64,000 bases of DNA from Nitrosospira briensis (GTDB lineage Bacteria; Pseudomonadota; Gammaproteobacteria; Burkholderiales; Nitrosomonadaceae), in NCBI RefSeq assembly GCF_900115125.1, contig NZ_FOVJ01000001.1, forward strand, positions 124,001 through 188,000, given 5' to 3'. The position numbers and the translations under genes were made by a program. The notes below the pieces were generated by a model. The model was not told the origin of the DNA. It searched no databases and worked only from the letters and a program-made list of their open reading frames with translations. The stretch's first letter is position 1; the number at the start of each line of letters is the position of its first letter. Positions 2,557 through 18,642 of this stretch are shown here, in pieces.

Positions 2557-2613
2557 AGGTATATACTTATTATCCATTTTTGATTAGCGCAACTGAAGTC
2601 ATTGGTGGGTACC

Positions 2614-3240: not shown

Positions 3241-3425
3241 TTATCCCTGCCATATATCGAATGATTCATCTGCTCAGGAGGACATGAATAGAGGATATTA
3301 ATAGGGGGGGCATAAATTCAGGTCATACCACATCGATTTTTGCCCATTATGGGAAAGAAATTCTTCCTCTAAGCTTCTGCTTGTGCATAGCAAATCCCTT
3401 GCTGCAACAAATAGGAGGAATTTCC

Positions 3426-4823
3426 ATGAACCTGATCATCCAGTATCGTCCCATCACTGCTCTCCACCTCGATTCGCGCAATCCGCGGGTCCATACTTCC
3501 CAGCAAATCCGCAAGATCGGTCAGAGCATCGAGAGCTTCGGCTTCAATGTTCCGGTCCTCATCGATGATACCGGCAAGGTCCTGGCTGGCCACGGCCGCG
3601 TCATGGCCTGCCAGAAGCTCGGCTGGGCCGAGGTTCCCACCATTCAGCTGAGTCACTTGACCTCCGAGCAAGCTCGGGCGTTCTCCATCGCCGACAACCG
3701 CCTCACCGAAATAGCCGAATGGGATGATCAGCTGCTGGCGCAAAGCCTGCGCGAACTGGCCGCCGCCGATCTGGACTTCAGCATTGAAGCCACCGGCTTC
3801 ACCATGGGTGAGATCGACCTGCGTATCGATGATCCGGCCTTGGGTAAAGCGGCTGACCCGGATCCCGCTGACCGGATAGAAGAGACCGGGACGAATCATC
3901 CGGTGAGCCAGACCGGCGACTTGTGGCAGCTCGGCCGCCATCGTCTGCTGTGCGGCAATGCCCTGCAGCCGGAGAATTATACCGTCCTGCTGGAAGGCAA
4001 ACAGGCTCACATGGTCTTTACCGATCCACCTTATAACGTTCCCATCAACGGCCATGTCAGCGGCAAGGGTGTCATGCAGCACCGGGAATTCGCCATGGCC
4101 GCGGGAGAAATGAGCGAGGCCGAGTTTGCTGATTTTCTCACCGAGGTGTTCCAGTGTCTGGCCCGGCACACCCTCTCCGGCTCGCTGCACTACCTCTGCA
4201 TGGACTGGCGCCATATTCATGAGATTACCGCTGCCGGCAAAGAGGCCTATAGCGGCCTCAAGAACCTCTGCGTCTGGGTCAAGGATAACGGCGGCATGGG
4301 TTCGCTCTACCGCAGCCGCCATGAACTTGTGTTCGTGTTCAAGAATGGCACCGCCCCTCACCGCAACAATGTCCAGCTGGGTACCTACGGCAGGTACCGC
4401 ACCAATGTCTGGGAATATCCCGGCGCGCATACGCTCAGCCGCCAGGGGGAAGAAGGCAATCTGCTGGCGCTGCATCCTACTGTCAAGCCGGTACAGATGG
4501 TCGCTGACGCAATGCTTGATTGCTCAGCACGCGGGGATCTCGTGCTCGACCCGTTTCTCGGCAGCGGCACCAGCCTGATTGCCGCAGAACGTGTAGGACG
4601 TTCCTGCCGTGGCATGGAACTCGATCCATGCTATGTGGATGTGACTATCCGCCGCTGGGAACGGCATACCGGAGCAGAGGCCATCCATGCCGCCTCGGGC
4701 ATGACGTATGCCGCGCGCGAAACATGGATGCGCGAGCAAAGCCGGATACGGGCACAAGACCGGTCACAGGAACAAACCAGAATGCATGAGCAAGCCACGA
4801 CGCAGGAGGCGGGCCATGTCTGA
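3426..4823 (+). CDS. ParB-like nuclease domain fused to DNA modification methylase
   Basis: The start at ATG 3426 follows a clear AGGAGG. The 465-aa protein has two parts. Residues 1-130 form a ParB/sulfiredoxin-like domain (LDSRNPRVHT, then GHGRVMACQKLG at 55-66 and FSIADNRLTE). Residues 165-440 form a beta-class N4-cytosine/N6-adenine methyltransferase with the catalytic TDPPYN at 199-204 and the AdoMet site DPFLGSGTS in the C-terminal part. The last 35 residues are polar and Glu/Arg/Gln-rich. Such fusions are common in prophages, where they methylate DNA next to packaging genes. Its stop overlaps the next gene by 8 bp and the terminase gene follows, so the three form one unit. The target sequence is not predictable here. 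Confidence 0.88.
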   Translation: MNLIIQYRPITALHLDSRNPRVHTSQQIRKIGQSIESFGFNVPVLIDDTGKVLAGHGRVMACQKLGWAEVPTIQLSHLTSEQARAFSIADNRLTEIAEWDDQLLAQSLRELAAADLDFSIEATGFTMGEIDLRIDDPALGKAADPDPADRIEETGTNHPVSQTGDLWQLGRHRLLCGNALQPENYTVLLEGKQAHMVFTDPPYNVPINGHVSGKGVMQHREFAMAAGEMSEAEFADFLTEVFQCLARHTLSGSLHYLCMDWRHIHEITAAGKEAYSGLKNLCVWVKDNGGMGSLYRSRHELVFVFKNGTAPHRNNVQLGTYGRYRTNVWEYPGAHTLSRQGEEGNLLALHPTVKPVQMVADAMLDCSARGDLVLDPFLGSGTSLIAAERVGRSCRGMELDPCYVDVTIRRWERHTGAEAIHAASGMTYAARETWMREQSRIRAQDRSQEQTRMHEQATTQEAGHV

Positions 4824-5409
4824 CAAGAATCCCAATGACAATGCCTACGAAATAGGCTACAAGCGCCCGCCACAGTCCACGCGCTTCAAGCCTGGCAGGA
4901 GCGGCAATCCCAAGGGGCGCCAAAAGGGTTCCAGAAACTTCGCCACCGTGCTGGAAGCGGAGCTGAACACGCGTATTTCGGTCACGGAGAATGGCGTCCG
5001 CAAGACCATATCCAAGCGCGAAGCCACCGCTAAGCATCTGGTCAATAAAGCCGCCACAGGCCTGTTGCCCGCTGTCAAGCTCCTGCTGGAGCAGGAACGC
5101 CAGCAGGAGAATGAACAATCTCCGCTATCGAATGCGCCGCGGGATCTGTTGCCTCCCGACCACTTGGTACTGAAGAGCTTGTACCGGCGGCTGATGCAGA
5201 TGGAAGCCACGCCTGCAATCGCTGCGGCCGATGAAGTCCGGTCACCGCAGCAACGGATGGAAGATGCCCAGGCAGATGATGTCCGCTCATCCCGGCAGCA
5301 GATAGCAGCAGCCAGCAGTAGTGGCAGCAGTACAGGGGCGGATGGCCTGCCACGGGCATTTGATCCTCTTTGTTCGCCTCGCCAGGACAGTGGCCGTGAA
5401 TCTGACTAG
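4816..5409 (+). CDS. DUF5681 domain-containing phage-type protein
   Basis: The start at ATG 4816 has an AGGAGG ribosome site inside the end of the methylase gene, which it overlaps by 8 bp. The N-terminal half carries the DUF5681 signature: YKRPPQSTRFKPGRSGNPKGRQKGSRN at about residues 15-41, then a helical region ending AAKHLVNKAATG. The C-terminal half is low-complexity, Ser/Ala/Gln-rich and probably disordered. DUF5681 proteins usually lie directly before a terminase large subunit gene, as here (the next gene starts inside this one), so a role in DNA packaging, such as a small-terminase-like partner, is plausible but unproven. 197 aa. Confidence 0.82.
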   Translation: MSDKNPNDNAYEIGYKRPPQSTRFKPGRSGNPKGRQKGSRNFATVLEAELNTRISVTENGVRKTISKREATAKHLVNKAATGLLPAVKLLLEQERQQENEQSPLSNAPRDLLPPDHLVLKSLYRRLMQMEATPAIAAADEVRSPQQRMEDAQADDVRSSRQQIAAASSSGSSTGADGLPRAFDPLCSPRQDSGRESD

Positions 5410-6823
5410 CCTGGGTGCGACCAGCGTGGAGATGGACGCTGTATTGCGTCATGACCTTTATAGCTTCGTCGAGCGGGCCTTCTATGAATTGAACCCGGAA
5501 ACACAGTTCGTGCCCGCTTGGCATATCCATGTAATCGCAGCCAAGCTGGAAGCCTGCCATCGGGGAGAGATCCGCCGCCTGATCGTGAACCTGCCGCCGC
5601 GGCATCTGAAATCCCATTGCATCAGCATTGCGTTCGTGGCCTGGTATCTGGGTCATCATCCCGCCGGACATGTCATCTGTGCCAGCTACGGCAAGGACCT
5701 GGCTGAGAAACTGGCACGCGATTGCCGCGCGGTGATGCAGAGCGCGTGGTACCGCTCTGCCTTCGGCACACGTATCTCGCACCTGCGCCAGGCGGTCGAC
5801 GACTTCATGACCACACAGCAGGGCACGCGCATGGCCACTTCGGTAGGTGGAGTGCTGACCGGCCGTGGCGCGGACTTGATCATTATCGACGACCCGCTCA
5901 AACCGGATGAGGCCTTATCCGACACCGCACGCAAGACCGTGAATGGCTGGTACGATAATTCCCTGCTCAGCCGCCTCAACGATAAGGAAAAGGGTTGCAT
6001 CATTGTCACCATGCAGCGCCTGCATCAGGACGATTTGGTGGGCCACGTGCTGGAACAGGAAGGCTGGGAGGTCCTGTCGCTGCCGGCAATTGCGGAAGAG
6101 CCCCAATCCTTCGTGATCAATGGAGTGTTCGGCCGGCGGGAATACCGCCGCGCCATCGGTGAGGTCCTGCATCCTGAGCGCGAATCGCTGGCGTTGCTGG
6201 AACGCATACGCGGTAGCATCGGCGCCTATAACTTCGCCAGCCAGTACCAGCAAAGCCCCGTTCCTCTGGGCGGGGCTATCGTCAAAACCCGTTGGCTACG
6301 GTATTGCGAACCAGCCGATTGGCCCAAGCGCTTCGGGCGCGTGGTGCAAAGCTGGGACACGGCCAACAAGGCCACAGAGTTCAGCGATTACAGCGTGTGC
6401 ACCACCTGGGGGGTGCACGAGCACCGTTTCTACCTGTTGGATGTATTCCGCAAACGCATGGAATACCCTGAGCTCAAGAAAGCGGCCAAGGAACTGCGGC
6501 ACCACTACCCGGCAGCCAAGCTGCTGATCGAAGACAAGGCCTCAGGCACGCAACTCATCCAGGAGCTCAAACGCGAGGGGATCTACAGTATCGAACCCGT
6601 CCTGCCGCCCGCAGGTATGGATAAAATCATGCGGCTGTACATGCACACGACCTTGTTCGAGGAGGACAAAGTAATTCTGCCGAAATACGCCCCGTGGCTG
6701 GCAGGCTATGTGCACGAGCTGACCGGATTCCCCGGCGGCAAATACGACGACCAGGTAGATTCGACCACGCAGGCGCTGCAGTATTTGAAGCAACGCCGAT
6801 CAACGATATATGATGTGCTATAG
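5396..6823 (+). CDS. Phage terminase large subunit (TerL)
   Basis: Motor and nuclease of phage DNA packaging. With GTG 5396 as start (it overlaps the previous gene by 14 bp and gives the N-terminus usual for this group) the protein has 475 aa. ATPase half: a Walker A-like NLPPRHLKSH (65-74), Walker B LIIIDD (161-166) and the coupling segment CIIVTMQRLHQDDL. Nuclease half: QSWDTANK with D321, LLIEDKASG with D380 and GGKYDDQVDS with D451/D452/D455, the acidic triad of the RNase H-like terminase nuclease. Both catalytic centres look intact. An ATG at 5432 is an alternative start. No portal, protease, capsid or tail gene follows; the next gene is on the opposite strand, so this is a packaging module without a phage. 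Confidence 0.92.
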   Translation: MNLTSLGATSVEMDAVLRHDLYSFVERAFYELNPETQFVPAWHIHVIAAKLEACHRGEIRRLIVNLPPRHLKSHCISIAFVAWYLGHHPAGHVICASYGKDLAEKLARDCRAVMQSAWYRSAFGTRISHLRQAVDDFMTTQQGTRMATSVGGVLTGRGADLIIIDDPLKPDEALSDTARKTVNGWYDNSLLSRLNDKEKGCIIVTMQRLHQDDLVGHVLEQEGWEVLSLPAIAEEPQSFVINGVFGRREYRRAIGEVLHPERESLALLERIRGSIGAYNFASQYQQSPVPLGGAIVKTRWLRYCEPADWPKRFGRVVQSWDTANKATEFSDYSVCTTWGVHEHRFYLLDVFRKRMEYPELKKAAKELRHHYPAAKLLIEDKASGTQLIQELKREGIYSIEPVLPPAGMDKIMRLYMHTTLFEEDKVILPKYAPWLAGYVHELTGFPGGKYDDQVDSTTQALQYLKQRRSTIYDVL

Positions 6824-6826
6824 GCG

Positions 6827-7813
6827 TCATACGTGTTCAGTTTGCTGGGATGAGACGAGGCTGCCAGTCCGGTTGACCTGCCTGTAGGCCTGCATGATGC
6901 GCTCGGGAAACACGGCCTTGAATTTGAGCAAGGCCATGATCGCCCAGCGTTTGATCTCTTCCAGCGTTTCCGAAGGGGCATCGATATCCCCGTCTCGATA
7001 TACCGCGATACGGCAGGCCCGGCGCGCCTCCAGCCGCTCCCAGCTGAGTTCGTAGCCCATCGCGGCTTCAATCTCGGCGCGGCTGGCAAACAGCAGTTCG
7101 AACAGCGCTTCGTTTTTGGCCTTGTCTGCACAGTCGATATAGACTTCGGCTCTGACCCGCCCCTGTTGCGCAAAGCTGGTGCTGTAGAGAAAGACCCGGG
7201 AGTTCTCCGATGAGAAGGTGTACCAGTTCTGCGGCTGTCCGGCACGTGCATTGGTGAACTGGTGCTGGGTGCGCAGATCATCGATCAATCCCTGAAAGTA
7301 GGTCCGGTATTTCTGCTTGATTTCGCTCGGCTCCTCATTGCGGGGCAGGGCAATCACCTCCGCCGGCGCGCACGCCAGATTAAAGGTATAGGCCGGACGC
7401 GAATCGTCGATCCTCACCACTGAAACTTCCAACGCATAAAACTGCAATCCCTCCTTCAAATGCTGGTTGAGGAAATCGATGGCGGTCTTGTGTTCCTGCC
7501 GGATTGATTCTGCGACCCATACTACTGCGTTGGCGCCAAGGACGGATGAGTAGGTGATGATCTGGCCCAGATGGCAATGGTCCGTGCGTCCGTATTGGTT
7601 TTCGATCACTACCACCCGGTTGGTGGACAAGTCGCGCGCGACGATATCGGCTGAGAAATTGCCCGCCGAGACTTCGGTGCTGTCCAAAGTCAATTCCATG
7701 CCGAGCTTCTCGCCCAGGATATCCAGGTTCTCGGCCAGCCATGGGGTGAAGTGGGTCGCCTCGCCGGGCCAGAGGTCTTTGAGTGCCACGGGTTGGAGGA
7801 GGCCGAAATTCAT
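6827..7813 (-). CDS. DUF4268 / PD-(D/E)XK nuclease-like protein
   Basis: The start is set at ATG 7813 (MNFGLLQPV); the open frame runs further upstream but through the intergenic region. The 328-aa protein has an N-terminal restriction-nuclease-like fold: ADIVARD with D56, then VVVIENQYGRTD with E71 and Q73, and HLGQIITY, the D...ExQ active-site pattern of PD-(D/E)XK relatives. The C-terminal half (YRTYFQGLIDDLR... to ...LEEIKRWAIMALLKFKAVF) is the DUF4268 domain. Members are often found in mobile islands and near restriction or defence genes; substrate unknown. It converges on the terminase gene and diverges from an XRE regulator that may control it. Confidence 0.75.
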   Translation of the reverse strand: MNFGLLQPVALKDLWPGEATHFTPWLAENLDILGEKLGMELTLDSTEVSAGNFSADIVARDLSTNRVVVIENQYGRTDHCHLGQIITYSSVLGANAVVWVAESIRQEHKTAIDFLNQHLKEGLQFYALEVSVVRIDDSRPAYTFNLACAPAEVIALPRNEEPSEIKQKYRTYFQGLIDDLRTQHQFTNARAGQPQNWYTFSSENSRVFLYSTSFAQQGRVRAEVYIDCADKAKNEALFELLFASRAEIEAAMGYELSWERLEARRACRIAVYRDGDIDAPSETLEEIKRWAIMALLKFKAVFPERIMQAYRQVNRTGSLVSSQQTEHV

Positions 7814-7896
7814 GGTGCCGTCCAAAAGGGATAAGGGGCAGTTTGCGGAAAATGTAAGTAGAAGAGCATGTTTAGAACTCCATAGAAGGTTAAATG

Positions 7897-7909
7897 ACAC
7901 TCATAGTGT
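7897..7909. promoter_or_regulatory. Candidate operator between the DUF4268 gene and the XRE regulator
   Basis: A perfect inverted repeat ACACT-CAT-AGTGT lies in the 154-bp space between two divergent genes, one of which encodes a helix-turn-helix repressor-like protein. Size and symmetry suit an XRE dimer site. No clear -35/-10 pair was identified, so the role is inference. Confidence 0.35.
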
Positions 7910-7967
7910 GCCATACGTTTCCTATGAAGTGTTGTATGCATACGAGGTATCGGAGAAGCTTTTCCGA

Positions 7968-8231
7968 ATGAAAAAGCCGATCCAGAAAACTGCACATTTG
8001 ACTGCGCGGCAGATATTTGCCAGAAATGTACGCCGTTACCGGCGCATCAACGATATCTCACAGGAACAGCTGGCCCTGATGGCCGGCATGAGCCGCTCCT
8101 ATGTCAGCGGCGTCGAGCGCGAGGAACGCAATGTGTCGATCGATAATATGGGCAGGATGGCCGATGTATTGGGCGTAGCGCTCAAAGATCTATTGGACCC
8201 GGCATTATTCGAGCAGGTCGAAAAACGCTGA
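7968..8231 (+). CDS. XRE-family helix-turn-helix regulator (87 aa)
   Basis: The start at ATG 7968 gives a compact lambda-repressor-like protein. The helix-turn-helix core is NVRRYRRINDISQEQLALMAG (about residues 20-40) and MSRSYVSGVEREERNVSIDNM, followed by LADVLGV-type helix MADVLGVALKDLLDP. There is no extra effector domain, as in the small regulators of restriction-modification and phage modules. The ORF extends upstream of this ATG but would then read through the promoter region of the divergent gene. It probably regulates itself and the neighbouring DUF4268 gene. Confidence 0.82.
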   Translation: MKKPIQKTAHLTARQIFARNVRRYRRINDISQEQLALMAGMSRSYVSGVEREERNVSIDNMGRMADVLGVALKDLLDPALFEQVEKR

Positions 8232-8533
8232 GGGTTGTAACCAACTATTTTTTTGTGATAGCCGGATGGTTCGGGTGTTGAATATCGCCGATCGACGGAG
8301 GCGGCAACTAGAATGTGCGTCCAGTACAGGCATTCGGCGGTTCGAGTAAAGCCTAGTTATCGCTCCAAACCGCCTACGGTTTGGCTCAGGCCAAGAAGAA
8401 TACAGATATATCGTGGTAAGCGGCATGCCCCAACAGTGTCCTCGCGGCAAAAGCCGCCCATGACTTAAAAAGGAAGTGACTTTACACACCGAATTGGTGT
8501 AATGTGGTGCATATTAATTATGTGGAGCTAAAC
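8232..8533. other. Intergenic stretch before the restriction-modification genes
   Basis: About 300 bp without a convincing gene. It has a T-run soon after the XRE stop (8251-8258), which could end that transcript, and the palindrome described separately near 8490. The short open frames here lack ribosome sites and family resemblance. Confidence 0.4.
8482..8502. promoter_or_regulatory. Palindromic operator candidate upstream of the RHH and methyltransferase genes
   Basis: ACACC-GAATT-GGTGT (8486-8500) is an inverted repeat inside the longer TTACACACC...GGTGTAA. It lies 32 bp before the start of a ribbon-helix-helix protein gene and would overlap its promoter (a -10-like ATTATG/TATTAA follows). 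Ribbon-helix-helix proteins bind such sites and commonly repress their own operon; here that would also set methyltransferase and nuclease levels. Confidence 0.45.
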
Positions 8534-8728
8534 ATGGCCACCAAAAGTAAGCAATCAGCAAAAATGAAAACAACTCCGGCGCTTCGCGCCTCTGTGAGTT
8601 TTCCACCCGAGATCTACCGCACGTTAGAGCAATTAGCAGAAAAGAAGAAAGTCTCATTTGCCTGGATCGTGCGGGACGCGGCAGAAAAATACATTGCCGA
8701 ACAATGGCCGCTGTTCGGGAAGAGCTAA
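8534..8728 (+). CDS. Ribbon-helix-helix (CopG-like) DNA-binding protein, 64 aa
   Basis: The start at ATG 8534 has a GGAG site 6 bp upstream; the frame continues 10 codons further up without one. After a Lys-rich N-terminus the pattern ALRASVSFPPEIYRTLEQLAEKKKVSFAWIVRDAAEKYI is a single ribbon-helix-helix fold: a beta-strand (RASVSF), then two helices. It ends 12 bp before the methyltransferase gene, so it is the first gene of the restriction-modification operon and probably its controller, in the place where other systems have a C protein. A palindrome just upstream is its likely site. Confidence 0.75.
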   Translation: MATKSKQSAKMKTTPALRASVSFPPEIYRTLEQLAEKKKVSFAWIVRDAAEKYIAEQWPLFGKS

Positions 8729-8740
8729 GAGAGAACAGGG

Positions 8741-10018
8741 ATGAGAACAACACCTAAAACAAAGAAATCCCGGCTGAAATTAGTGACGCCTGGTAAGCGG
8801 GTGGTACAGCTGGCATTGTTGCGAACCATCGATTTGTTTTCAGGGGCAGGGGGGATCACCGAAGGATTCCGGCAAGCAGGATATCAGTGTCTTTACGGCA
8901 ATGACTGCATGATGGAGGCGATGAAGACTTTTGAGCACAACCATCCTGAGGCCTGGTCGGATTGGCGCAACATTGAGGATGTGAAACCCATCGAAATCAG
9001 ATCAAAGTTAAAGCTCGAAAAAGGCGAGCTAGATGTACTCGTTGGCGGACCACCCTGTCAGGGATTTTCAATTAATGCCCCTGAGCGATTTCTTCACGAT
9101 CCGCGCAATAAGCTTTTCACGGACTATGTGCGATTTCTTGAAGAATTTGAGCCAAAGACATTCCTTTTTGAGAATGTCCCAGGTTTGCTCTCGCTCGGCG
9201 ATGGTATGGTATTGAAGCGTATTCTGAGCGAATTCGGGAGATTGGGTTATTACGTTACAGTAAAGGTTCTCTTTGCTGCCCATTATGGCGTGCCTCAAGA
9301 GCGGTGGCGTCTAATTTTGCTTGGTTCCAAGCTGGGAGAAATCGCTGCACCGGAGCCTACGCATTATGCAATGGGACGAGCAAATTTTCGGGGTGGAAGC
9401 GGTGTTCTGACATTCCAGCTCGCGGAATCGGATAAAGCTCACCTCTTACCAACAGTAACAGTTGCAGAAGCAATTGGAGATCTGCCGCGCCTTGATATGG
9501 GCGAGGGAGCCGAAGCAATTGGCTACACAATTGAGGCTGAAAGTGAGTACGCGCAAAGGATGCGTAACCCTAAAGGTGTGGTTTATAACCACTTTGCTGC
9601 GAAACTTTCAAAGCAGAATGTGGAACGCATGAAGCACGTAAAGCCAGGAGGCTCTTGGCGTGATATCCCTCATGAATTGCTTCCAAAAGGAATGCAGCGC
9701 GCACGAAAATCTGATCACACCAAACGGTACGGCCGGCTCCGCAATAATGGATTAGCCGGGACAGTTCTCACCAAGTGTGATCCGCATTGGGGTGCTGCGT
9801 TTCTGCCCGATCAAAATCGGACTCTAACAGTACGGGAAGCGGCAAGATTTCAATCTTTTCCTGATAGCTACCAGTTTCTTGGTTCCCGCGTTTCACAGTA
9901 TGTTCAAGTAGGCAATGCGGTCCCGGTGCTCATGGCAAAGGAAATTGGGGCTAGTATCCGTACTCACCTTGAGATGCATAGTGCTGCAATGACTGATCTG
10001 GAAGCTATACATGGCTAG
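8741..10018 (+). CDS. DNA cytosine-5 methyltransferase of a type II restriction-modification system
   Basis: Transfers a methyl group from AdoMet to C5 of cytosine in the site cut by the next gene's product. All main motifs of the family are visible in the 425-aa protein: I (IDLFSGAGG, 30-38), IV with the catalytic cysteine GGPPCQGFS (C106), VI FENVPGLL, VIII QERWRLILLGS, and IX-X (VREAARFQSFP ... QVGNAVPVLMA). The target recognition region lies between VIII and IX, about residues 210-370. Its stop overlaps the start of the restriction gene by 8 bp (ATGGCTAG), typical for coupled methyltransferase-endonuclease pairs. The start at 8741 is the first in-frame ATG after the RHH gene. Confidence 0.93.
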   Translation: MRTTPKTKKSRLKLVTPGKRVVQLALLRTIDLFSGAGGITEGFRQAGYQCLYGNDCMMEAMKTFEHNHPEAWSDWRNIEDVKPIEIRSKLKLEKGELDVLVGGPPCQGFSINAPERFLHDPRNKLFTDYVRFLEEFEPKTFLFENVPGLLSLGDGMVLKRILSEFGRLGYYVTVKVLFAAHYGVPQERWRLILLGSKLGEIAAPEPTHYAMGRANFRGGSGVLTFQLAESDKAHLLPTVTVAEAIGDLPRLDMGEGAEAIGYTIEAESEYAQRMRNPKGVVYNHFAAKLSKQNVERMKHVKPGGSWRDIPHELLPKGMQRARKSDHTKRYGRLRNNGLAGTVLTKCDPHWGAAFLPDQNRTLTVREAARFQSFPDSYQFLGSRVSQYVQVGNAVPVLMAKEIGASIRTHLEMHSAAMTDLEAIHG

Positions 10019-10907
10019 TACCATTACGGAGTTTTTTGGCTATAGCCCTCTGGATAAATCGCTGGCGGCACAAACAGCACGCGACACTTTGCAGTGTCCG
10101 TTCCTTGAGCGGACTTGCGTAAAAACTCTCAGCGATGGGTCTATTAGTGGAGTTTGCACACTCAAACCAATGACAAGCGGGCCGGTAATCTGTTGCCCAA
10201 TCCGGCTCTATTCTGGAAGTTACAAAATCCTTCATGATGTAACCTTGCAGTCGTTTGGTGATGGGATTGATCTTGTTATTGGGGGTGAAGTTACCCAGTA
10301 CCGTGCTAAAAATCCCGGAAAGCCCTGTATTGCGGTGTTTGGAAAACGGTGGGGCAAGGAGCTGCGTCTGCCGAGCCGGGCTAAATCTGGTGCTTATTTC
10401 GTGGACTGGATTCTTGCTCATGTCGATCCTTCTGGACGGCTTCTCGGTTTCGTTGCTATTGAAGTGCAATCCATCGATACGACAGGAAACTATCAGGCCG
10501 AACGCTCGGCTCACTTGGCAGGCATCCCTTTCGCCGGAAGCAGCACAGCTGGGTTCAATTGGGAAAACGTCAATAAACGAATACTTCCACAGATCATCTA
10601 CAAAGGGCACGTGCTGCGCCGGGAACCGCTCTGCCACAAGGGGCTTTTCTTTATCTGTCCAACACCTGTTTACAAAAAGATTGCTGAACGGCTGGGCGGC
10701 TCTTTGACCCCGATTCATCAACAATCGGGCGCAGTGACAATGATGTGGTATGACGTGGGACCGCCTGTGCCCGATGGCCAAATACGCAGCCTCGAACTGA
10801 TAGGCCAATACACAACGACGGTTGACCAGGTGGCGCTTGCCTTTACGGCCCCAAGCAACTTGCCCCCGCCAAAAGTTTACGAGCAAGCAATCATCGCTGA
10901 GTTGTGA
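10011..10907 (+). CDS. NotI-family type II restriction endonuclease
   Basis: The 298-aa protein matches the NotI family. The N-terminal part has the cysteine cluster that binds iron in NotI: C29 (QCPF), C36 (TCVK), C49 (GVCTLK) and C61/C62 (VICCPIR). The nuclease core has E117, D132 (YFVDWIL), and E151-V-Q153 (VAIEVQSIDTTGNY): a PD-(D/E)XK site with Gln replacing the usual Lys, as known for NotI, and the E117-to-D132 spacing agrees with what I recall of NotI. The gene starts inside the methyltransferase stop. NotI cuts GCGGCCGC; whether this relative does so is inference. Catalytic residues appear intact, so the enzyme is probably active. Confidence 0.82.
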   Translation: MASTITEFFGYSPLDKSLAAQTARDTLQCPFLERTCVKTLSDGSISGVCTLKPMTSGPVICCPIRLYSGSYKILHDVTLQSFGDGIDLVIGGEVTQYRAKNPGKPCIAVFGKRWGKELRLPSRAKSGAYFVDWILAHVDPSGRLLGFVAIEVQSIDTTGNYQAERSAHLAGIPFAGSSTAGFNWENVNKRILPQIIYKGHVLRREPLCHKGLFFICPTPVYKKIAERLGGSLTPIHQQSGAVTMMWYDVGPPVPDGQIRSLELIGQYTTTVDQVALAFTAPSNLPPPKVYEQAIIAEL

Positions 10908-11006
10908 ACTTCAGTATTAAGGCCAATAGTGCGGTCCCGCTTTTATGGCTACAGCTTGCGGCTTTACGCTGGTTTCTGCAAAAATCTTCAGATAAGCAGA
11001 TTTAAG

Positions 11007-11411
11007 GTGACGGACAAGATTGACCCGGCGCGGCGGAGTGCAAATATGCGTGCAATCCGCAGTCAGCACATGAAACCCGAAATGATTGTGCGACAGCTCA
11101 TACATGGTATGGGCTACCGCTACCGCTTGCACCAGCGGGATCTTCCAGGAAAACCGGATCTCGTTTTTTCATCCCGGAAAAAGGTGATTTTCGTTCACGG
11201 ATGTTTCTGGCACTCCCATGAATGCGGAACAGCGCACAAGCCGAAATCAAACCTGGGTTACTGGATACCAAAGCTAGGACGCAACAAGGAACGGGACGCT
11301 GAGAACGTTGTAAAGCTGGAAATGCAAGGCTGGCGTGTATTTACTGTCTGGGAATGCGAAACCAAGAATCATGAGACTCTAAAGCAAAAGTTGCTATGTT
11401 TCCTTGCATAA
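11007..11411 (+). CDS. vsr: Very-short-patch repair endonuclease (Vsr)
   Basis: Nicks DNA 5' of T:G mismatches left when 5-methylcytosine deaminates, protecting sites of the partnering methyltransferase. The pattern is complete: DPARRSANMRAIRSQHMKPE (start of domain), RYRLHQRDLPGKPDLVFSSRKKVIFVHGCFWHSHECG, and GRNKERDAENVVKLEMQGWRVFTVWECE. GTG 11007 gives the usual VTDKIDP N-terminus and 134 aa; the open frame reaches back to 10929 but that part looks unrelated. It follows the NotI-like gene by 99 bp on the same strand and likely belongs to that system. Confidence 0.9.
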   Translation: MTDKIDPARRSANMRAIRSQHMKPEMIVRQLIHGMGYRYRLHQRDLPGKPDLVFSSRKKVIFVHGCFWHSHECGTAHKPKSNLGYWIPKLGRNKERDAENVVKLEMQGWRVFTVWECETKNHETLKQKLLCFLA

Positions 11412-11909
11412 GAAAATTCATTCATTAAGAAAGCGATGAGCGATATCGAAGAGAGCATTTTGGCGCGTATGTACAAGGTATCGCTGCAGTCATCGATGTG
11501 TTGCCAAGCTGCGACATGGCAAGGATGATTTTCAGGAAAGTATCATCGACGTTCCGCGATTTGGGAAGGTCCGTTTTACCTGCACACGCGTGACGCACAA
11601 ATATCAAATCTTACTCAGCATTCCGGACAGCGATTGTAGCGGTTAAAGTAGCTTAACCGGCTTTCAAAAACAAAGGCCAGTGAGGGGCTGGCCTTTGTAA
11701 GGTTCGTTCTATTCGGGTATTCCCATCCTTAAAAAGTTAATAAGAGAGCAGGATTTTCAACGAGCCTTTTTTCTAATGCATTATTGAGCGACCGGATGAA
11801 TAGGCTTTATATCAAGCCTGCCTCGTCAATTCGATGGAATAAAGTTATGTCATCGGCCAAGTCCTATGATCGCGATGAATTTTGATCACTCGTAAAAATC
11901 AAGGTAGAA
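11412..11909. other. Intergenic region between the restriction and SPARTA operons
   Basis: About 500 bp. The only clear structures are two inverted repeats: GGTTAA...TTAACC (11641-11658) and the terminator hairpin at 11671-11697. I see no convincing gene; the open frames here have no ribosome site or family likeness. The promoter of the TIR-APAZ operon should lie in 11700-11900, an AT-rich stretch, but I could not fix its boxes. Confidence 0.4.
11671..11697. terminator. Hairpin terminator downstream of the Vsr gene
   Basis: Perfect 10-bp stem CAAAGGCCAG / CTGGCCTTTG with loop TGAGGGG. The A- and T-rich stem bases suit a bidirectional intrinsic terminator although no long T-run follows. It separates the restriction operon from the SPARTA operon. 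Confidence 0.55.
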
Positions 11910-13316
11910 ATGAATCGTTCAACCATTTTCTTAAGCCATGCTGCACCGGAAGATAACGACTTCACTGATTGGTTGGCTGCAAAACTAACCCTAATGGGTT
12001 ATACCGTTTGGCATGATCTTGGCCGTCTCAAAGGAGGAGATCTATTCTGGAGTAAGATCGAAGCAGCTATTCGGAATGACACCATTCGATTTGTTGCGAT
12101 TGTCTCAGAGGTCTCGTATAAAAAGGACGGGGTTCGGAACGAATGGGCATTAGCGGCGACAATAGAAAAAACAATCCCAGGGTTTGTCATTCCAATTCGA
12201 CTTGATGGATTCGACTTCAATCGGCTTCCCATCACCATCCATCAGAAAAATGTTATCGATTTTTGCTGCGGATGGCACCATGGATTAACACAATTACTAG
12301 ATACGTTAAGTGAAGCCAATATTGCCAACAGCAATTCAGTAGACCCTGTGATGGCCAAAGGTTGGATGGTTCAGAGCGCAGACGATGCCATAGTAAAGAC
12401 TGATCGTCCTGAAACACTTGAATCAAACTGGTTACCTATATTGTCTCTGCCATCCACAATGGAAACGGCGAAAATTCTCTTTTCAAGCCGTCAAATCCCG
12501 GTCACCTCAACCAATAGATTGTTGCCTTGGTTCGAATTGGGCGATCACATTATAGGATTTGCGCCAGGAGCCGCACTTGTAGAAATGTTCAAAGAGAGTG
12601 TTCCGCTGAGAGTGGTAACTGCAGTGGACACGGAGAGTTTTGTTAATGAAGGCACCATGTGGAATCACCAGCGGATAACTGTTGGTGATGCAAGAAATCG
12701 AGCCGCATATCTCATACGTCAAGCATGGGACCTAGCGATGGAAAGAACCGGATTAAGGCCTTACGAACTTTCGAATCATCGATTGATCTGGTATGTACCT
12801 ACAGGGCTTATTCCTAAGGATAAGGTTGAGTTTATCGAGGCAAGCGGCAAGCGCCGCAAGAAGAAACTATGCGGAGAAAGCGAGAAGTTAAACGTAAACT
12901 GGCATTACGCTGTAAGTATGCGTCCAGTTTTCAATTCCCCTCGCAGGATAGAGCTTGGGGCACACATCGTTTTTACTGATATGGATGGTTGCCTTGTTCA
13001 ATCTGTTGAAAGAATGCATAGGCTGCGGCGGCGTTTTTGCAAAAATTGGTGGAACGATCGCTGGCGAGGATTTCTTCGTGCATTCTTGGCCCTCGTTGCT
13101 CAAGGAGGGGACGCTATCCTGCTTCCTGTCGGAGGAGACCGTTCCATCCGTGTCGGCGCGTTTCCACTCACTTTTAATGCTTTAAATGGGCTTAGTGATG
13201 TGGTTGATCTCGCGGAAGACGACGATGTTGAATTGGACGAGAACGACGACTTGATTGAGTTACCGGAGGATGACGCCGTTTTCATTGACAAGATTCAGGA
13301 AATACATGAACGCTGA
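11910..13316 (+). CDS. TIR-APAZ subunit of a SPARTA (short Argonaute) defence system
   Basis: Effector subunit: in characterised SPARTA systems the TIR domain degrades NAD(P)+ when the partner Argonaute finds invader DNA, killing or arresting the cell. The 468-aa protein begins with a TIR domain (1-130): TIFLSHAAPED (5-15), WHDLGRLKGGDLF, and WSKIEAAI with the likely catalytic Glu at E51, then VSEVSYKKDGVRNEWALA. Residues about 170-430 fit the APAZ region that replaces the N-PAZ half of long Argonautes and holds the guide/target duplex. Residues 436-455 form an extremely acidic tail (13 of 20 are Asp/Glu), matching the autoinhibitory acidic tails reported for this class. The start has AAGG upstream. 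The stop overlaps the Argonaute gene by 11 bp. Confidence 0.88.
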   Translation: MNRSTIFLSHAAPEDNDFTDWLAAKLTLMGYTVWHDLGRLKGGDLFWSKIEAAIRNDTIRFVAIVSEVSYKKDGVRNEWALAATIEKTIPGFVIPIRLDGFDFNRLPITIHQKNVIDFCCGWHHGLTQLLDTLSEANIANSNSVDPVMAKGWMVQSADDAIVKTDRPETLESNWLPILSLPSTMETAKILFSSRQIPVTSTNRLLPWFELGDHIIGFAPGAALVEMFKESVPLRVVTAVDTESFVNEGTMWNHQRITVGDARNRAAYLIRQAWDLAMERTGLRPYELSNHRLIWYVPTGLIPKDKVEFIEASGKRRKKKLCGESEKLNVNWHYAVSMRPVFNSPRRIELGAHIVFTDMDGCLVQSVERMHRLRRRFCKNWWNDRWRGFLRAFLALVAQGGDAILLPVGGDRSIRVGAFPLTFNALNGLSDVVDLAEDDDVELDENDDLIELPEDDAVFIDKIQEIHER

Positions 13317-14838
13317 TCGTATTTTGCAGTCGCTCGTCGAGCCGACCCTCGCGTTTGGTTATGGCCAACATATGGAGCATCCAAAAGACGGGTTGCTACT
13401 TTACGGGCCATATTCAAATCCATTCTTGGGTGGCAAGTTGCGAATCGGGTTGATCTCAACCCCAGAAGGCGCTACTCGATACGCTACGTGGGTCCGGCAG
13501 ATTTCAAGAGCTATTTATCCCAAAAAGGCCGGAGACCCTAACCATACTGTATTTCCTGGATTCCAAGCGGTCTTCCAAACAGAATGGCCCGAGGTACCAA
13601 CGGCTAAACTAGTGCTCGACGCCACTGAGCTTAATCATGCAATTTGTATGGAAGACCGCTACCAAGCTATTTATAAGGCAGTGTCGCTCTACGCAGATTC
13701 TATCGTTTCCTTCATTCGTGAACAGAGCGAAACGTCCATCGACCTCTGGATGTCGGTTGTCCCGGAAGAAATCTACCGATTAGGACGTCCTAAATCAAAA
13801 GTTACGAAGGAGGAACGACAACAATCCGAGATTCTGATGGATAAGAAAGCAGCAACTCGAATTTTTCGACAGCCATCCTTGTTTGACGATGATAATAAGA
13901 ATGCAGAGATTTACCTTTACGAGCTGAACTTTCATAACCAGCTCAAAGCGCGGCTTTTACGACACAAAGTTGTGATACAAGTCGTTCGTGACACAACTCT
14001 CGCGCCCGGCGATTTCGAGAAGAGTAATGGTATGCCACTTCGCCAATTGCAAGATCCCGCGACGCTTGCATGGAATCTAGCGACAACAGCATTCTTCAAA
14101 GCTGGAGGTCAGCCGTGGAAATTAAGCACTCCGCGTCCCGGCGTCTGCTACGTGGGCATCGTGTTTAAAAAGGAAGCCCTTGGTGCTGACGAGAACAATG
14201 CGTGCTGCGGCGCGCAGATGTTTCTGGATTCGGGCGATGGCGTGGTCTTCCGTGGTGCAGTGGGACCATGGTATTCGCCATCTAATAAGCAATTTCATCT
14301 GACACGTGAGAAGGCTCGTGATTTAATGAATTTGATTGTTGGGTCTTATCGCCGCCTACATGATGGGCAATCTCCAACCGAGCTCTTTATCCACGGAAAG
14401 ACTTGGTTTTCAGCTGAGGAATGGGATGGATTTCGAGAAACAGTACCAGAGAATTGCAAAGTTGTTTGTGTGCGTATCCAAGAAGACAGTTCATTAAAGC
14501 TTTTTCGTCGTGGGCAGACCAATATTCCACGCGGCTTTGCTTGGGCAATGTCCGAAAAAAAGGGTTATCTCTGGAGCAAAGGCTTCATACCTCGATTGCA
14601 GACCTACCCTGGCCGCGAAGTCCCTAATCCGCTGTCAATCGAAATCGTCAGAGGCGAAGCGAATATTAATGTCGTAATGAACGATGTGTTTGCACTGACT
14701 AAGCTTAACTACAATACCTGTATTTTTGGCGACGGCGTGCCAGTTACTTTACGGTTTGCCGATTCAATTGGAGAAATCCTGACGGCAGGTCCGATTCAAG
14801 AAAATTTACCGCCGCTTCCTTTCCGCTATTACATCTGA
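13306..14838 (+). CDS. Short prokaryotic Argonaute (MID-PIWI) of the SPARTA system
   Basis: RNA- or DNA-guided sensor subunit. ATG 13306 follows AGGA and overlaps the TIR-APAZ gene, so the pair is translationally coupled. The 510-aa size fits a short Argonaute without N and PAZ domains. In the MID part, NFHNQLKARLL carries H210 and K214, an HxxxK pair like that used for the guide 5' phosphate. The family signature WNLATTAFFKAGGQPWKL (256-273) starts the PIWI half; the position of the first catalytic Asp reads YVGIVFKK (282-289), so the slicer tetrad is absent, as in all short Argonautes. The protein ends in the hydrophobic PFRYYI. It should bind targets but not cut them, and signal to the TIR domain. 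Confidence 0.9.
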   Translation: MNADRILQSLVEPTLAFGYGQHMEHPKDGLLLYGPYSNPFLGGKLRIGLISTPEGATRYATWVRQISRAIYPKKAGDPNHTVFPGFQAVFQTEWPEVPTAKLVLDATELNHAICMEDRYQAIYKAVSLYADSIVSFIREQSETSIDLWMSVVPEEIYRLGRPKSKVTKEERQQSEILMDKKAATRIFRQPSLFDDDNKNAEIYLYELNFHNQLKARLLRHKVVIQVVRDTTLAPGDFEKSNGMPLRQLQDPATLAWNLATTAFFKAGGQPWKLSTPRPGVCYVGIVFKKEALGADENNACCGAQMFLDSGDGVVFRGAVGPWYSPSNKQFHLTREKARDLMNLIVGSYRRLHDGQSPTELFIHGKTWFSAEEWDGFRETVPENCKVVCVRIQEDSSLKLFRRGQTNIPRGFAWAMSEKKGYLWSKGFIPRLQTYPGREVPNPLSIEIVRGEANINVVMNDVFALTKLNYNTCIFGDGVPVTLRFADSIGEILTAGPIQENLPPLPFRYYI

Positions 14839-14866
14839 ATACCGCGCCTGGTGTATGTAGGTCTTA

Positions 14867-14891
14867 GGAGGTCAATCGGATTGATCGCTCC
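14867..14891. terminator. Possible terminator after the SPARTA operon
   Basis: GGAG-GTCAAT-CGG-ATTGAT-CG-CTCC forms an imperfect hairpin 28 bp after the Argonaute stop and is followed by TTAATT. Without a proper T-run the call is weak. Confidence 0.35.
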
Positions 14892-15037
14892 TTAATTAGA
14901 TCCAAAAAATTCTGAAGTCATCTCAGCTTTCACAATCTCTATTGCTGAGAAAGCGTTATGAATGACTTGATACCTTTGGGCATTCGAGCGTTACTGGTAT
15001 TGCTGCAGCGATAGGGCTGCAGATAACCGGAGAATCC

Positions 15038-15661
15038 ATGCCTAGTAAAGCCCCCCGATCTACCCGAATCATCCCACCGGCCCCACCCTCAAGTAACACA
15101 TCAGCTCCCGTTCGCCGATCTGCCCGAACTGAAGATTCGAATCGATTGACCCCAAAACGATCAGCCCAAAAACGAGCGAGTCAAAAACGGCCAACTGCTG
15201 AGCCTCCTCGCAGTACAGGCTACCCTTCCGATCCAACTATTGGCGGCAGCGTCCAACAAAAACCTCTACAAAAAAGCCCGCAAAAACTCCGAACGGTTAT
15301 CCCCGCAGCACCGCCCTCCATGGCATTCCAGGCTGACCCGTCCTTTCAAACCAGCCTACCGGGTCATAGCAGTCAAGTTATTCCTCTCAGCCAAACTGCT
15401 CACCCCAGCCAACCCATCACCGGCAGCAAACAATCCCGGTTGATTGAGCTACTGCATCAGCCTGCCGGAGCTAGCCTTGCTGATTTAATACAGGCCACCG
15501 GCTGGCAAGCTCATTCGGTGCGCGGCGTGATCTCAGGAGTATTGCGCAAACGGCTCGGCCTCGCTGTAATCTGCCAAGCCAATCAGGATGGCAAGCGGAT
15601 CTACCGCATCAAGCCGGTAATGAATGGGGCTGAGACAGATAGTGCGGAGATGGCTAAATGA
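15038..15661 (+). CDS. DUF3489 domain-containing protein
   Basis: The 207-aa protein has two parts. Residues 1-130 are low-complexity, rich in Pro, Ser, Arg and Lys (a disordered basic tail). Residues 131-195 form the DUF3489 domain, a winged-helix-like fold: SKQSRLIELLHQPAGASLADLIQATGWQAHSVRGVISGVLRKRLG, then GKRIYRI. The family occurs next to DUF2924 and a large serine recombinase, exactly as here, and may help the recombinase bind or choose its DNA sites; the role is not established. It overlaps the next gene by 4 bp (ATGA). Confidence 0.85.
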   Translation: MPSKAPRSTRIIPPAPPSSNTSAPVRRSARTEDSNRLTPKRSAQKRASQKRPTAEPPRSTGYPSDPTIGGSVQQKPLQKSPQKLRTVIPAAPPSMAFQADPSFQTSLPGHSSQVIPLSQTAHPSQPITGSKQSRLIELLHQPAGASLADLIQATGWQAHSVRGVISGVLRKRLGLAVICQANQDGKRIYRIKPVMNGAETDSAEMAK

Positions 15662-16047
15662 TGGCTATCGGTAATTTGTTGGCTGAACTGGAAACACTGG
15701 ACCGGGCAACCCTGCTGGAGCGCTGGCAATCTGCCTTTGGCCATGTTGCCCCCCGGCATATCCGCAGTGAAATGATGCAGCGCGCCCTGGGCTGGCATGT
15801 GCAGGTCCGAGCCTACGGTGGTTTGGATGGTGAGATGCGGCGCAAGCTGCGTCGTATCTCACCAGGATTAAAGCTTGCCAAGGGTACTCGCCTGATCCGC
15901 GTTTGGCAGGGAGTGAGCCATCAGGTTACGGTACTCGATGTTGGCTTTGCCTACGAAGGTAAAACCTGGCGCAGTCTTTCAGCCATTGCCAGAGCCATCA
16001 CCGGCACTTCCTGGAACGGCAAAGTCTTCTTTGGGGTGACTGCATGA
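15658..16047 (+). CDS. DUF2924 domain-containing protein
   Basis: A 129-aa protein of the DUF2924 family: LAELETLDRATLLERWQSAFG (8-28), ALGWHVQVRAYGGLDGEMRRKLRR, then PGLKLAKGTRLIRVWQGVSHQVTVLDVGFAYEGKTWRSLSAIARAITGTSWNGKVFFG. It has a helix-rich front and a small C-terminal beta unit. The gene starts at ATGATG 15658 inside the end of the DUF3489 gene and ends inside the recombinase start, so the three are translated as a chain. Function unknown; the fixed neighbourhood implies it serves the recombinase. Confidence 0.87.
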   Translation: MMAIGNLLAELETLDRATLLERWQSAFGHVAPRHIRSEMMQRALGWHVQVRAYGGLDGEMRRKLRRISPGLKLAKGTRLIRVWQGVSHQVTVLDVGFAYEGKTWRSLSAIARAITGTSWNGKVFFGVTA

Positions 16048-18128
16048 GCGATCACCTTTCGGGCTCTCAACACGGTTCCGCTTCTCGGCAAAGCTGCGCT
16101 TCCCGCACGGTTGCCTGCGCGGTCTACACCCGCAAATCCTCCGAGGAAGGACTAGAACAAAGCTTTAATTCCATCGATGCCCAGCAGGAAGCCTGTGAGG
16201 CTTATATCCAGAGCCAGCGGCATGAGGGATGGAAAGCGCTGGACACGACGTATGACGACGGAGGTTTCTCGGGCGGCAATATGGAACGTCCTGGTTTACA
16301 GCAACTCATGCGTGATATCGCCGCTAGGAAGATTCGCGTGGTGGTGGTATACAAGGTAGACCGCCTTACCCGCTCTCTTGCCGACTTCGCGAAGATGGTG
16401 GAATTGTTCGATTTTCATGAGGTATCTTTCGTCTCGGTCACCCAGCAATTCAATACCACCACGTCCATGGGAAGGTTGACCCTGAATGTTCTGCTGTCGT
16501 TTGCGCAATTTGAGCGCGAAGTCACCGGTGAACGCATCCGCGACAAGATTGCGGCGTCCAAGGCAAAAGGGATGTGGATGGGCGGTAGTCCGCCGATGGG
16601 CTATATCCCCAGAGACCGCAGTCTGGTGATCGATGAGGATGCCGCCCGGCTAGTAACAGATATCTTCAATCTGTATTTGATACTCGGCTGTGTGAGCAGC
16701 TTGAAACTTGAGGTAGACCGGCGGGGGTTAATGACGCCAGCCCGTATTAGTCAGCGATCAGGGCAAAGCGGCAACCGGCCCTTTAGCCGCGGTCACCTCT
16801 ACCGGATTCTGTCCAATCCGATCTATATCGGACAGATTGCCCATAAGGATAAGACCTATCCGGGGCAGCATGCGCCGATCATTGACCGGACGGTGTGGGA
16901 TGCGGTACAGGCAAAGCTGACGGACAACCGGCAGGGAAATAAATTGCGCGGCAAAGCCAAATCCCCCAGTCTGCTTGCCGGACTGGTTTGGGATGAACAC
17001 GGGAATCGCCTGACTCCCAGCCACAGCAAGAAGGGCAGCCGCCGTTACCGCTATTATGTCGCTGAATGTCTAATTCAGAATAGCCGGGATCAGGCAGCCG
17101 GTGCACTAAGGATACCGGCTCATGAGCTGGAACAGGCAGTGATTCACAGTTTGATAGAATTCCTACGAAAGGATACGGATATCCTGAGCCTATTGGATGA
17201 ATGGCGTATCACCGATGCTCATCAGGTTCATGCCATTCTGCGCCGGGCGCATAGACTGGCAAAGCAGCTCGAAGCTCCTGAATCGATAACCGCTAGCCCT
17301 AAGCAGGCCAATGATGGGAAAGTCATCCCCGGCAATCGAACTCATAGTCAAGAATTAGCTACCTTCGGTCATGAACAATTATCTGTCTTCCCGGAATCAG
17401 CATCCCGCAGATCACCTTCTGTCAGAACTGTCTCCATGGAGTCTGTGCCCCTCGGCAATGCTGCGCTTATCCAGCTGCTGCAGGCTCTGGTACAAAAAAT
17501 TATTGTCGGTGTTGATCATCTGCAGATAAGTGTCCGATCGAATGTGATTTTGTATGACGAAGAGGAGAATTCAGATTGGTCGAGTTTGGATCGGCCGAGC
17601 GAAGTTCCGGTCGTGTGCGGCGATGCAGGATCAGATATTACGCATGTCTACGCAGGTATAGACGCATTGGGCCAGCACGAAGGAGAGACGCATCACCCTA
17701 CCCAAACGAGAGAATCCAGACCGAGCTTACTGACAGGCTCATCCGAGAACGATCAGGATATGCACACACTCATCCTGCCAGTAAAGCTCAAGCGCACCGG
17801 CTTGGCCATGCGGCTGATTGTGCCGGGGCAGGGGATTCATCGGGCGCCCGACCCGCGGCTGGTGCAATTGCTAATCAGAGCCTATGACTGGTTCGACCGG
17901 CTAAGATCGGGCAAGGCCAAAAGTATGCTGGCGATTGCGAATGAGGAGGAAATCACCAGCTCTTATGTTACGCGAGTGATCTATCTGGCATTCCTGGCGC
18001 CTGATATCGTTAAGGCGATATTGCAGGGGCAGCAGCCTGATACGCTGAGCCCGGATTCCCTGATGCGTTGCGTGCCGCTGCCTATCGATTGGAGTGAGCA
18101 GAGAAAGCTGTTAGGGTTCGTTTCCTGA
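16044..18128 (+). CDS. Large serine recombinase (integrase/invertase type)
   Basis: Site-specific recombinase that cuts and rejoins att sites through a phosphoserine link. The 694-aa protein has the resolvase catalytic domain at the N-terminus: AVYTRKSSEE with nucleophile S32 (YxRxS), VVYKVDRLTRSLADF, and SFAQFEREVTGERIRDKI. The recombinase domain follows (GYIPRD... to FSRGHLYRILSNPIYIGQIAHK, about 190-290). The usual zinc-ribbon cysteines after this are not evident (LLAGLVWDEHGNRLTP), and a long, divergent C-terminal part extends to 694 residues. It is last in the DUF3489-DUF2924-recombinase chain and lies 423 bp from tRNA-Ser. It is the best candidate for having mobilised the island or a part of it. 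Confidence 0.92.
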   Translation: MSDHLSGSQHGSASRQSCASRTVACAVYTRKSSEEGLEQSFNSIDAQQEACEAYIQSQRHEGWKALDTTYDDGGFSGGNMERPGLQQLMRDIAARKIRVVVVYKVDRLTRSLADFAKMVELFDFHEVSFVSVTQQFNTTTSMGRLTLNVLLSFAQFEREVTGERIRDKIAASKAKGMWMGGSPPMGYIPRDRSLVIDEDAARLVTDIFNLYLILGCVSSLKLEVDRRGLMTPARISQRSGQSGNRPFSRGHLYRILSNPIYIGQIAHKDKTYPGQHAPIIDRTVWDAVQAKLTDNRQGNKLRGKAKSPSLLAGLVWDEHGNRLTPSHSKKGSRRYRYYVAECLIQNSRDQAAGALRIPAHELEQAVIHSLIEFLRKDTDILSLLDEWRITDAHQVHAILRRAHRLAKQLEAPESITASPKQANDGKVIPGNRTHSQELATFGHEQLSVFPESASRRSPSVRTVSMESVPLGNAALIQLLQALVQKIIVGVDHLQISVRSNVILYDEEENSDWSSLDRPSEVPVVCGDAGSDITHVYAGIDALGQHEGETHHPTQTRESRPSLLTGSSENDQDMHTLILPVKLKRTGLAMRLIVPGQGIHRAPDPRLVQLLIRAYDWFDRLRSGKAKSMLAIANEEEITSSYVTRVIYLAFLAPDIVKAILQGQQPDTLSPDSLMRCVPLPIDWSEQRKLLGFVS

Positions 18129-18550
18129 GATCCCGTTTAATTCCAGCTTTCCCTCAGCCCCTCGGTTCTATATTAATCCGTTACTATCGATCGGACACCT
18201 TAATAACCGGCCATCGTTACGCAGCCGATTCATACCGATATCAGTCTGAGAGTTATCACGAAATATAAATCGGAGACATGATCGAAGATGATGCCGTGGC
18301 ACTTCCTTCCACGCGAACCATTTCCGTGCGACGACTGCCAAGTGGCAAGTCAGTACGACATTCTCACCTGATGCTTGGTTAAAAAACTATTACGAATTAG
18401 CTGCACACTGAGAATGCTCGGGAATGCAGCCCTAAATAAGGGAATTATCGAGACTGAGAAAAAAATAGAGAATGATATATGGCGTCCAGCGCGCGTACGT
18501 ACGGCGCCGTTCCTGATAAAAACTTATTATTCAATATTGCTAAGACTTAG
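18129..18550. other. Island edge between the recombinase and tRNA-Ser
   Basis: A gene-free, AT-richer stretch of 420 bp. This is where an attachment-site half would be expected, but I found no second copy of the tRNA 3' end within the window. An open frame crossing 18375-18623 runs into the tRNA and is not a gene. Confidence 0.4.
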
Positions 18551-18642
18551 TGGCGGAGAGAGAGGGATTCGAACCCTCGGTACGGTTGAAGCCGTACGCA
18601 CGCTTTCCAGGCGTGTACCTTAAACCACTCGGCCATCTCTCC
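18551..18642 (-). tRNA. tRNA-Ser (anticodon GGA)
   Basis: The complement folds as a long-variable-arm serine tRNA: acceptor stem GGAGAGA/TCTCTCC, D-arm GGCCGAGTGGTT, anticodon loop CCTGGAAAG with GGA, variable arm TACGG/CCGTA, T-loop GGTTCGAATCC, and encoded CCA (18551-18553). 92 nt, intact. It reads codons UCC and UCU. Its 3' end points at the accessory island to the left, the usual geometry for tRNA-borne integration. Confidence 0.97.

Follow-up and report, generated by a model that had tools for sequence, protein, structure and literature searches.

We find that a 64,000-nucleotide stretch of Nitrosospira briensis DNA (positions 124,001 to 188,000 of contig NZ_FOVJ01000001.1, assembly GCF_900115125.1; the whole stretch is called the window) encodes an intact SPARTA pair, a TIR-APAZ protein together with a short Argonaute (Ago), which was probably gained horizontally as defence cargo between the two halves of a gene module within an island at tRNA-Ser(GGA). 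Judged by sequence, the pair is an ordinary SPARTA, and what is less ordinary is its likely carrier.

Both genes lie on the forward strand. The first (11910..13316) encodes the 468-residue TIR-APAZ protein, with the TIR domain at residues 6–130, APAZ to about residue 445 and an acidic tail, and the second (13306..14838) encodes a 510-residue MID-PIWI Ago lacking slicer residues. Their reading frames are fully open and overlap by 11 nt. The list of open reading frames starts the Ago at a TTG at 13255 (527 residues); the ATG at 13306 yields the 510-residue form that aligns with relatives. Two overlapping SPARTA genes had been called at this place in an original prediction, made by a model from the letters and the list of reading frames, and its coordinates are right, with both PADLOC and the solved SPARTA complexes matching. 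The TIR-APAZ protein has a TIR_2 domain (PF13676, 4.9e-18), is best described by the PADLOC model Aga_TIR-PNTD1-PNTD2 (2.3e-145, residues 2–446) and matches PDB chain 8ifk_A at 4.7e-53 over residues 3–445, and eight distinct SPARTA-type sequences in the PDB at 2e-49 or better. The short Ago matches PADLOC pAgo_I (1.1e-203) and, over residues 10–510, the chains 8fex_B (2.8e-133; 8fex is presumably MapSPARTA) and 8ifk_B (1.7e-129); five distinct Ago sequences in the PDB reach 1e-128 or better over residues 10–509 or 10–510. It thus consists of MID and PIWI only and is encoded together with a TIR-APAZ fusion, as in SPARTA. The original prediction had named two ways in which it could fail, a 468-residue protein without APAZ or a 510-residue protein that did not align with PIWI, and neither is the case: profile and PDB alignment both place an APAZ region in the former, and the latter aligns with the PIWI of SPARTA Agos. 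A structure prediction for TIR-APAZ from a two-row alignment had a mean predicted local distance difference test score (pLDDT) of 37.7 and was not used, and a scan for promoters and terminators gave nothing exceeding shuffled sequences.

For residue comparison we aligned the window proteins with CrtSPARTA and with 15 relatives for TIR-APAZ or 14 for Ago; we identify 8ifk with CrtSPARTA from the fit of its residues to the numbering in PMC11156904. The catalytic Glu of the TIR domain, E77 in the Crt and Map proteins (E77A is the catalytic mutant of MapSPARTA in PMC10474274), aligns with E78, which rules out E51, the residue originally proposed. W46, Y105 and N116 correspond to W47, F103 and N114, and G42 and R54 of the assembly interface are kept as G43 and R55. 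In the Ago, the 5′-phosphate pocket H207/K211/N468/C-terminal I507 becomes H210/K214/N470/I510, so the H210 and K214 pair seen in the original prediction is indeed present. The slicer positions of CrtAgo (V284/Y328/R362/N484) correspond to V286/F330/K365/D486, such that three of the four acidic positions of the DEDX tetrad are replaced and the fourth is Asp (D486); V286 occupies the place of the slicer Asp that had been noted as missing. Overall, the SPARTA identity, the intact halves, the 5′-phosphate pocket and the dead PIWI of that first interpretation have stood, and its catalytic Glu has moved.

The acidic tail has 18 Asp or Glu among the last 40 residues, and at least 10 such residues occur there in 15 of 17 TIR-APAZ rows; the exceptions are the broken locus L025 and the Crt row, which stops at residue 434 in the alignment. 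According to PMC10474274, the corresponding Map region is untraced in the structure and its deletion has little effect. Among the relatives, one TIR-APAZ sub-branch (L018, L019 and L027) has Asp in place of the catalytic Glu and no active-site Trp, and the Agos of three alphaproteobacterial plasmid loci (L024, L025 and L026) have Arg in place of the pocket His.

The residues that weigh against a working pair are found at the assembly interfaces. The tetramer-centre R114 is Q112 in the window, BB-loop D44 is L45, and the Ago–Ago interface residues Q35/Y37 are L41/G43. In the MapSPARTA study (PMC10474274), G42R, D44A and R114Q substantially weaken or abolish NAD+ use, and in the CrtSPARTA study (PMC11156904) changing R114 to Glu and N116 to Ala removed activity. 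The copy might accordingly be SPARTA by sequence and yet weak or inactive as an NADase, its TIR tetramer weakened by Q112 and L45, which would make it a decaying or repurposed copy. We think this improbable, given that both genes are open, that E78, W47 and N114 are kept, that only 3 of 17 aligned rows retain D44, and that the R114 column is itself variable (R in 5 rows, Q in 3, H in 3, D in 3, E in 2 and N in 1). Glutamine is therefore a natural state here, and inactivity is not implied. Nevertheless, Q112 and L45 suggest that activity should not be assumed.

By homology to the characterised systems, the heterodimer would load a 5′-phosphorylated guide RNA, pair when guided with invading single-stranded DNA and then oligomerise, upon which the TIR domain would hydrolyse NAD(P)+ and stop the cell; it is from the same homology that NAD(P)+ depletion would be expected to follow guide and target binding. 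That this would amount to an extreme form of abortive defence in a slow-growing chemolithotroph is a reasonable speculation. The host is an ammonia oxidiser, as had been thought probable. AmoA is present in 16 of 23 congeners, with three copies each in five genomes of 1–4 contigs, and a congener AmoA matches ammonia monooxygenase subunit A in the PDB with 617.7 bits. No AmoA was found in the assembly itself, by a scan whose control genomes also gave no signal. The genome does have six pieces of AmoC, of which five exceed the cut-off and two sit right where a contig begins, as well as two HAO-type multihaem loci. Because AmoC occurs only in pieces and AmoA in 16 of the 23 congeners, we attribute the absence of AmoA to the assembly.

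In favour of our preferred reading, Ago relatives are patchily distributed and the nearest one stands in a different setting. Counting the Nitrosospira briensis genome itself each time, relatives are found in 4 of 23 genomes of the genus and 7 of 125 of the family, 3 of the latter being close, and at 1e-60 in 5 of 369 genomes of the class and 3 of 398 of the phylum. The nearest relative, from Methylobacter sp. FW305_bin.9 (L007), was the only one from a short-peptide scan of GTDB contigs. It is 78% identical in Ago and 62% in TIR-APAZ, and is sister to the window pair with support of 100/100 in both trees, in which the placement of the long-branched Crt rows is unsure. It keeps the tetramer-centre Arg, unlike the window, and the 19.5 kb fetched around it contain no module gene; the genes downstream resemble what we take to be a Wadjet set. 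In all 17 loci examined, Ago is directly preceded by a TIR-APAZ match, in some cases broken or truncated; four distant loci with a short Ago but no TIR-APAZ hit are not in this count. A second, distant type of SPARTA also occurs in the same genus and family (L002 in genome G009 and L010 in G053), its two copies being close to each other and 40% identical to the window in Ago. We rejected a phage-borne SPARTA, as there was no Ago match among 50,697 phage records, and neither Ago nor TIR-APAZ was found in IMG/VR by short-peptide patterns that detect close relatives only.

The pair lies in a 44.7-kb island, of which positions 1..18550 are in the window and which continues leftward to about position 97864 of contig C10 in the same genome (G000). 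Its integration target is tRNA-Ser(GGA) (18551..18642, minus strand), 422 bp beyond a serine recombinase gene, and the 3′ end of the tRNA (TGGCGG) forms the right island boundary. In 21 of 22 congeners, matches to the tRNA side start at 18544–18551, at or near the tRNA 3′ end; in the remaining one (G015) only a different tRNA-Ser matched. Empty sites are clear in G010 and G020 and weaker in G019. In the first two, the tRNA 3′ end abuts DNA that lies about 44.7 kb leftward in our genome (650 bp at 85% identity in L049, and 497 bp at 83% in L048), and the third joins the same left DNA more weakly (L051, 52 bp at 83%). In L035 the DNA that adjoins the tRNA 3′ end corresponds to a place still further left. 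The junctions read TTGGCGGTCC at the left end and GTGGCGGAGA at the right end of the island, and TTGGCGGAGA at the empty site in L049. A 6-bp core, TGGCGG, is present at both ends, though the hexamer also occurs inside the island by chance. Insertion at a tRNA 3′ end, direct repeats and empty sites in relatives are thus all found, as for a tRNA-targeted island. In 17 of the 21 congener loci (L032–L052), nothing past the tRNA 3′ end matches the 124 kb of our DNA used for comparison, and the site may be an integration hotspot.

Within the window, the SPARTA genes sit between two trios of genes that we call the module halves. The left half, on the forward strand, consists of a ParB-like/N6-N4 DNA methylase (3381..4823), a DUF5681 protein (4708..5409, the domain being within 4813–5406) and a terminase large subunit (TerL; 5321..6823) with ATPase- and nuclease-like motifs. 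The right half, also forward, consists of a DUF3489 protein (15038..15661), a DUF2924 protein (15658..16047) and a large serine recombinase (16044..18128). Between TerL and SPARTA are a DUF4268 protein on the minus strand, which is the PADLOC candidate PDC-S11 (6827..7900), and, on the plus strand, a reading frame with a C-terminal helix-turn-helix, C-protein-like regulator (7554..8231), whose true start is probably internal because it overlaps the DUF4268 gene, a type II 5-methylcytosine (m5C) DNA methyltransferase (8741..10018), a NotI-like restriction endonuclease (10011..10907; PF12183 9.3e-09, PADLOC REase_II 3.5e-46) and a Vsr endonuclease (10929..11411) found by profile matches. Together with SPARTA, these would make up a defence cargo sitting between module halves inside the island. 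The cargo has a GC content of 0.46–0.52 (0.564 for DUF4268), compared to 0.593 and 0.547 for the module halves. None of this context, whether the tRNA-Ser island, the NotI-like restriction-modification set or the TerL/serine-recombinase module, was part of the original prediction.

Such a setting also raises the question of whom the pair serves. It could defend the mobile element rather than the host, with SPARTA and restriction-modification excluding rival plasmids, phages or islands and stabilising the element. It does share an island with restriction-modification, recombinase and TerL genes, and Ago relatives are found on 100 plasmid records, 86 of which cover at least 80% of the query and 52 of which are typed as conjugative. 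We regard this as a serious possibility, if somewhat short of probable; it is compatible with host defence, and the present data do not tell the two beneficiaries apart.

The module recurs in IMG/VR. Loci were fetched with TerL (the best 80 of 107, and 58 more with the TerL of L155) and with the recombinase (80 kept of 145 found). A close set was defined as the 16 TerL-fetched loci with TerL at least 50% identical to that of the window over at least 150 residues; one of these, L259, and the L155 fetched with the recombinase are a single contig. The methylase or DUF5681 accompanies TerL in 16/16 of the close set, and DUF2924 or the recombinase in 14/16. Across all 239 loci compared, TerL is matched in 152; the methylase or DUF5681 joins it in 29, and 25 of the 29 have DUF2924 or the recombinase as well (L155/L259 counted twice). 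More distant TerL loci are mostly without the module, TerL is found in 10 of the 80 recombinase-fetched loci, and at 1e-60 in 3 of 369 class genomes, our own included. A scan for relatives of the Sphingobium TerL found none. The loci in which we recognise the module are L201, L206, L151–L153, L155, L158, L162, L166, L260–L270 and L060.

Several copies carry different cargo at the same place as here. On the Sphingobium plasmid pTomTYG65a it is about 36 kb with catabolic genes (DUF3489 was undetected there), and on pTomMM7Aa, where TerL is only a piece, about 18 kb with ectoine genes. In L162, whose contig begins inside TerL, it includes a CapH/CapP-like pair, a DUF5131 candidate and a DUF4268/PDC-S11 protein. 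Other, direct copies have little between TerL and the right half (L206, and L201, whose contig begins inside the methylase), and one is tandem-like (L166, with the end of TerL, DUF2924 and the recombinase followed by the methylase, DUF5681 and TerL). Divergent copies are the commoner form, and L155 has an m5C methylase and Vsr beside TerL. In L154 the methylase–DUF5681 pair stands with a different terminase.

The tRNA neighbourhood recurs in part. The 3′ end of a tRNA-Ser(GGA) faces the recombinase in L151, L158 and L162, as in the window, and that of other tRNAs does so in L201 (Val), L060 and L066 (Gln) and L263 (Ser TGA). No tRNA is nearby in L155, L159, L166, L206 and most TerL-fetched loci, and the contigs of L152 and L153 end too early to show one. 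Ten TerL-bearing loci extend 300 bp or more past the recombinase, and 6 of them, including two Sphingobium plasmids, have a tRNA within 400 bp of it; of the 72 recombinase loci without TerL, one has a tRNA within 1500 bp. This is a contrast rather than a test, since many of those 72 contigs probably belong to phages. In the close set, L263 is alone in having a tRNA within 500 bp of the recombinase, and in L269 a tRNA-Ser lies some 235 bp past the TerL reading frame; the other 14 of 16 have none within 500 bp, several contigs being short, but L261, L262 and L265 showing more than 1 kb.

Tentatively, then, SPARTA could be cargo of an undescribed family of capsid-less integrative elements, an idea that we consider less likely than not. 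Such an element would have a minimum of about 6 kb (methylase, DUF5681, a TerL with intact motifs, often DUF3489, DUF2924 and the recombinase). It would insert at tRNA 3′ ends, those of Ser, Val and Gln tRNAs having been seen, at times as tandem copies, with a defence or metabolic cargo that can reach about 36 kb. It may be packaged in helper phage particles by its own terminase, with DUF2924 possibly reading the element's methylation to control recombination; the reader idea starts from a partial match of RAMA to DUF2924 described in PMC11342252.

A more sceptical view is that TerL and the recombinase are the remains of a decayed prophage that had defence genes inserted into it, and not a mobile module. 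True phages, AcaML1 and WO among them, do have related recombinases, TerL relatives at 43–44% identity stand in an IMG/VR locus (L072) and a genome contig (L150) that by eye look like phage fragments, and some module copies are damaged, with TerL in two reading frames in L269 and only a piece in L066. We nonetheless hold this to be rather unlikely, since the same gene set recurs, nearly empty copies exist, and TerL motifs are intact in nearly all rows where they are visible (the second acidic motif is altered in L158 and L166). Moreover, none of the nine proteins scanned near TerL in L151, L155, L158 and L162 hit a structural PHROG family, several hits being of unknown function. Nor, in the part covered, does the island have the make-up of an intact prophage, in which portal, capsid and tail genes would accompany TerL and an integrase, as the proteins scanned between TerL (6823) and DUF3489 (15038) were all of defence type, the left part of the island remaining unscanned for structural genes.

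For the preferred reading, of SPARTA gained as cargo between module halves, three further points have to be set on the other side of the balance. The fetched flanks of the 17 other SPARTA loci show no module gene, though many of these flanks are short. Recombinase relatives occur in 9 of 125 family genomes besides our own, and in the 13 stretches fetched (of 14 matches) the methylase, DUF5681 and TerL are absent nearby. Finally, the island may be composite, because a second serine recombinase stands at its far left end, beside two ParB-like genes recognised by eye. The left part of the island (about 97864–124000 of C10 plus window positions 1–1146) also contains two giant minus-strand reading frames of 3344 and 2563 residues, the second of which has a start that we take to resemble SpvB/Rhs-type proteins.

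The vehicle that carries SPARTA may be new. In the literature searched we found no paper combining Argonaute and Nitrosospira and no description of the module; DUF2924 turned up there in Wolbachia papers and DUF5681 in phage work. Tycheposons, phage-inducible chromosomal islands (PICIs) and their capsid-forming relatives (cf-PICIs), and PICI-like elements (PLEs) are likewise chromosomal islands that combine parts derived from phages with varying cargo; to our knowledge, none is defined by the methylase-DUF5681-TerL/DUF3489-DUF2924-recombinase set. If the module is a real element family, it moves SPARTA, restriction-modification, CapH/CapP-like regulators and metabolic operons, and would carry a packaging motor without a shell. 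The larger point concerns how immune systems like SPARTA travel. The phages WO (Wolbachia) and AcaML1 (Acidithiobacillus) have the same DUF2924–recombinase gene pair, and AcaML1 in addition a ParB-methylase and a DUF3489 match. However, AcaML1 is a complete phage that has capsid and tail genes and lacks any match to the window TerL, whereas the scanned parts here yielded no structural gene. With the pair itself, a known immune system turns up in a genus of ammonia oxidisers. Like MapSPARTA and CrtSPARTA, the pair is an operon of TIR-APAZ and short Ago with the catalytic Glu, the W46 equivalent, the His/Lys/Asn/C-terminal Ile pocket for the 5′-phosphate and missing slicer residues. It differs from them in having Q112, L45, L41/G43 and F103 in place of R114, D44, Q35/Y37 and Y105, and because its native Q112 equals a crippling MapSPARTA mutation, it offers a natural test of the R114 interface rule.

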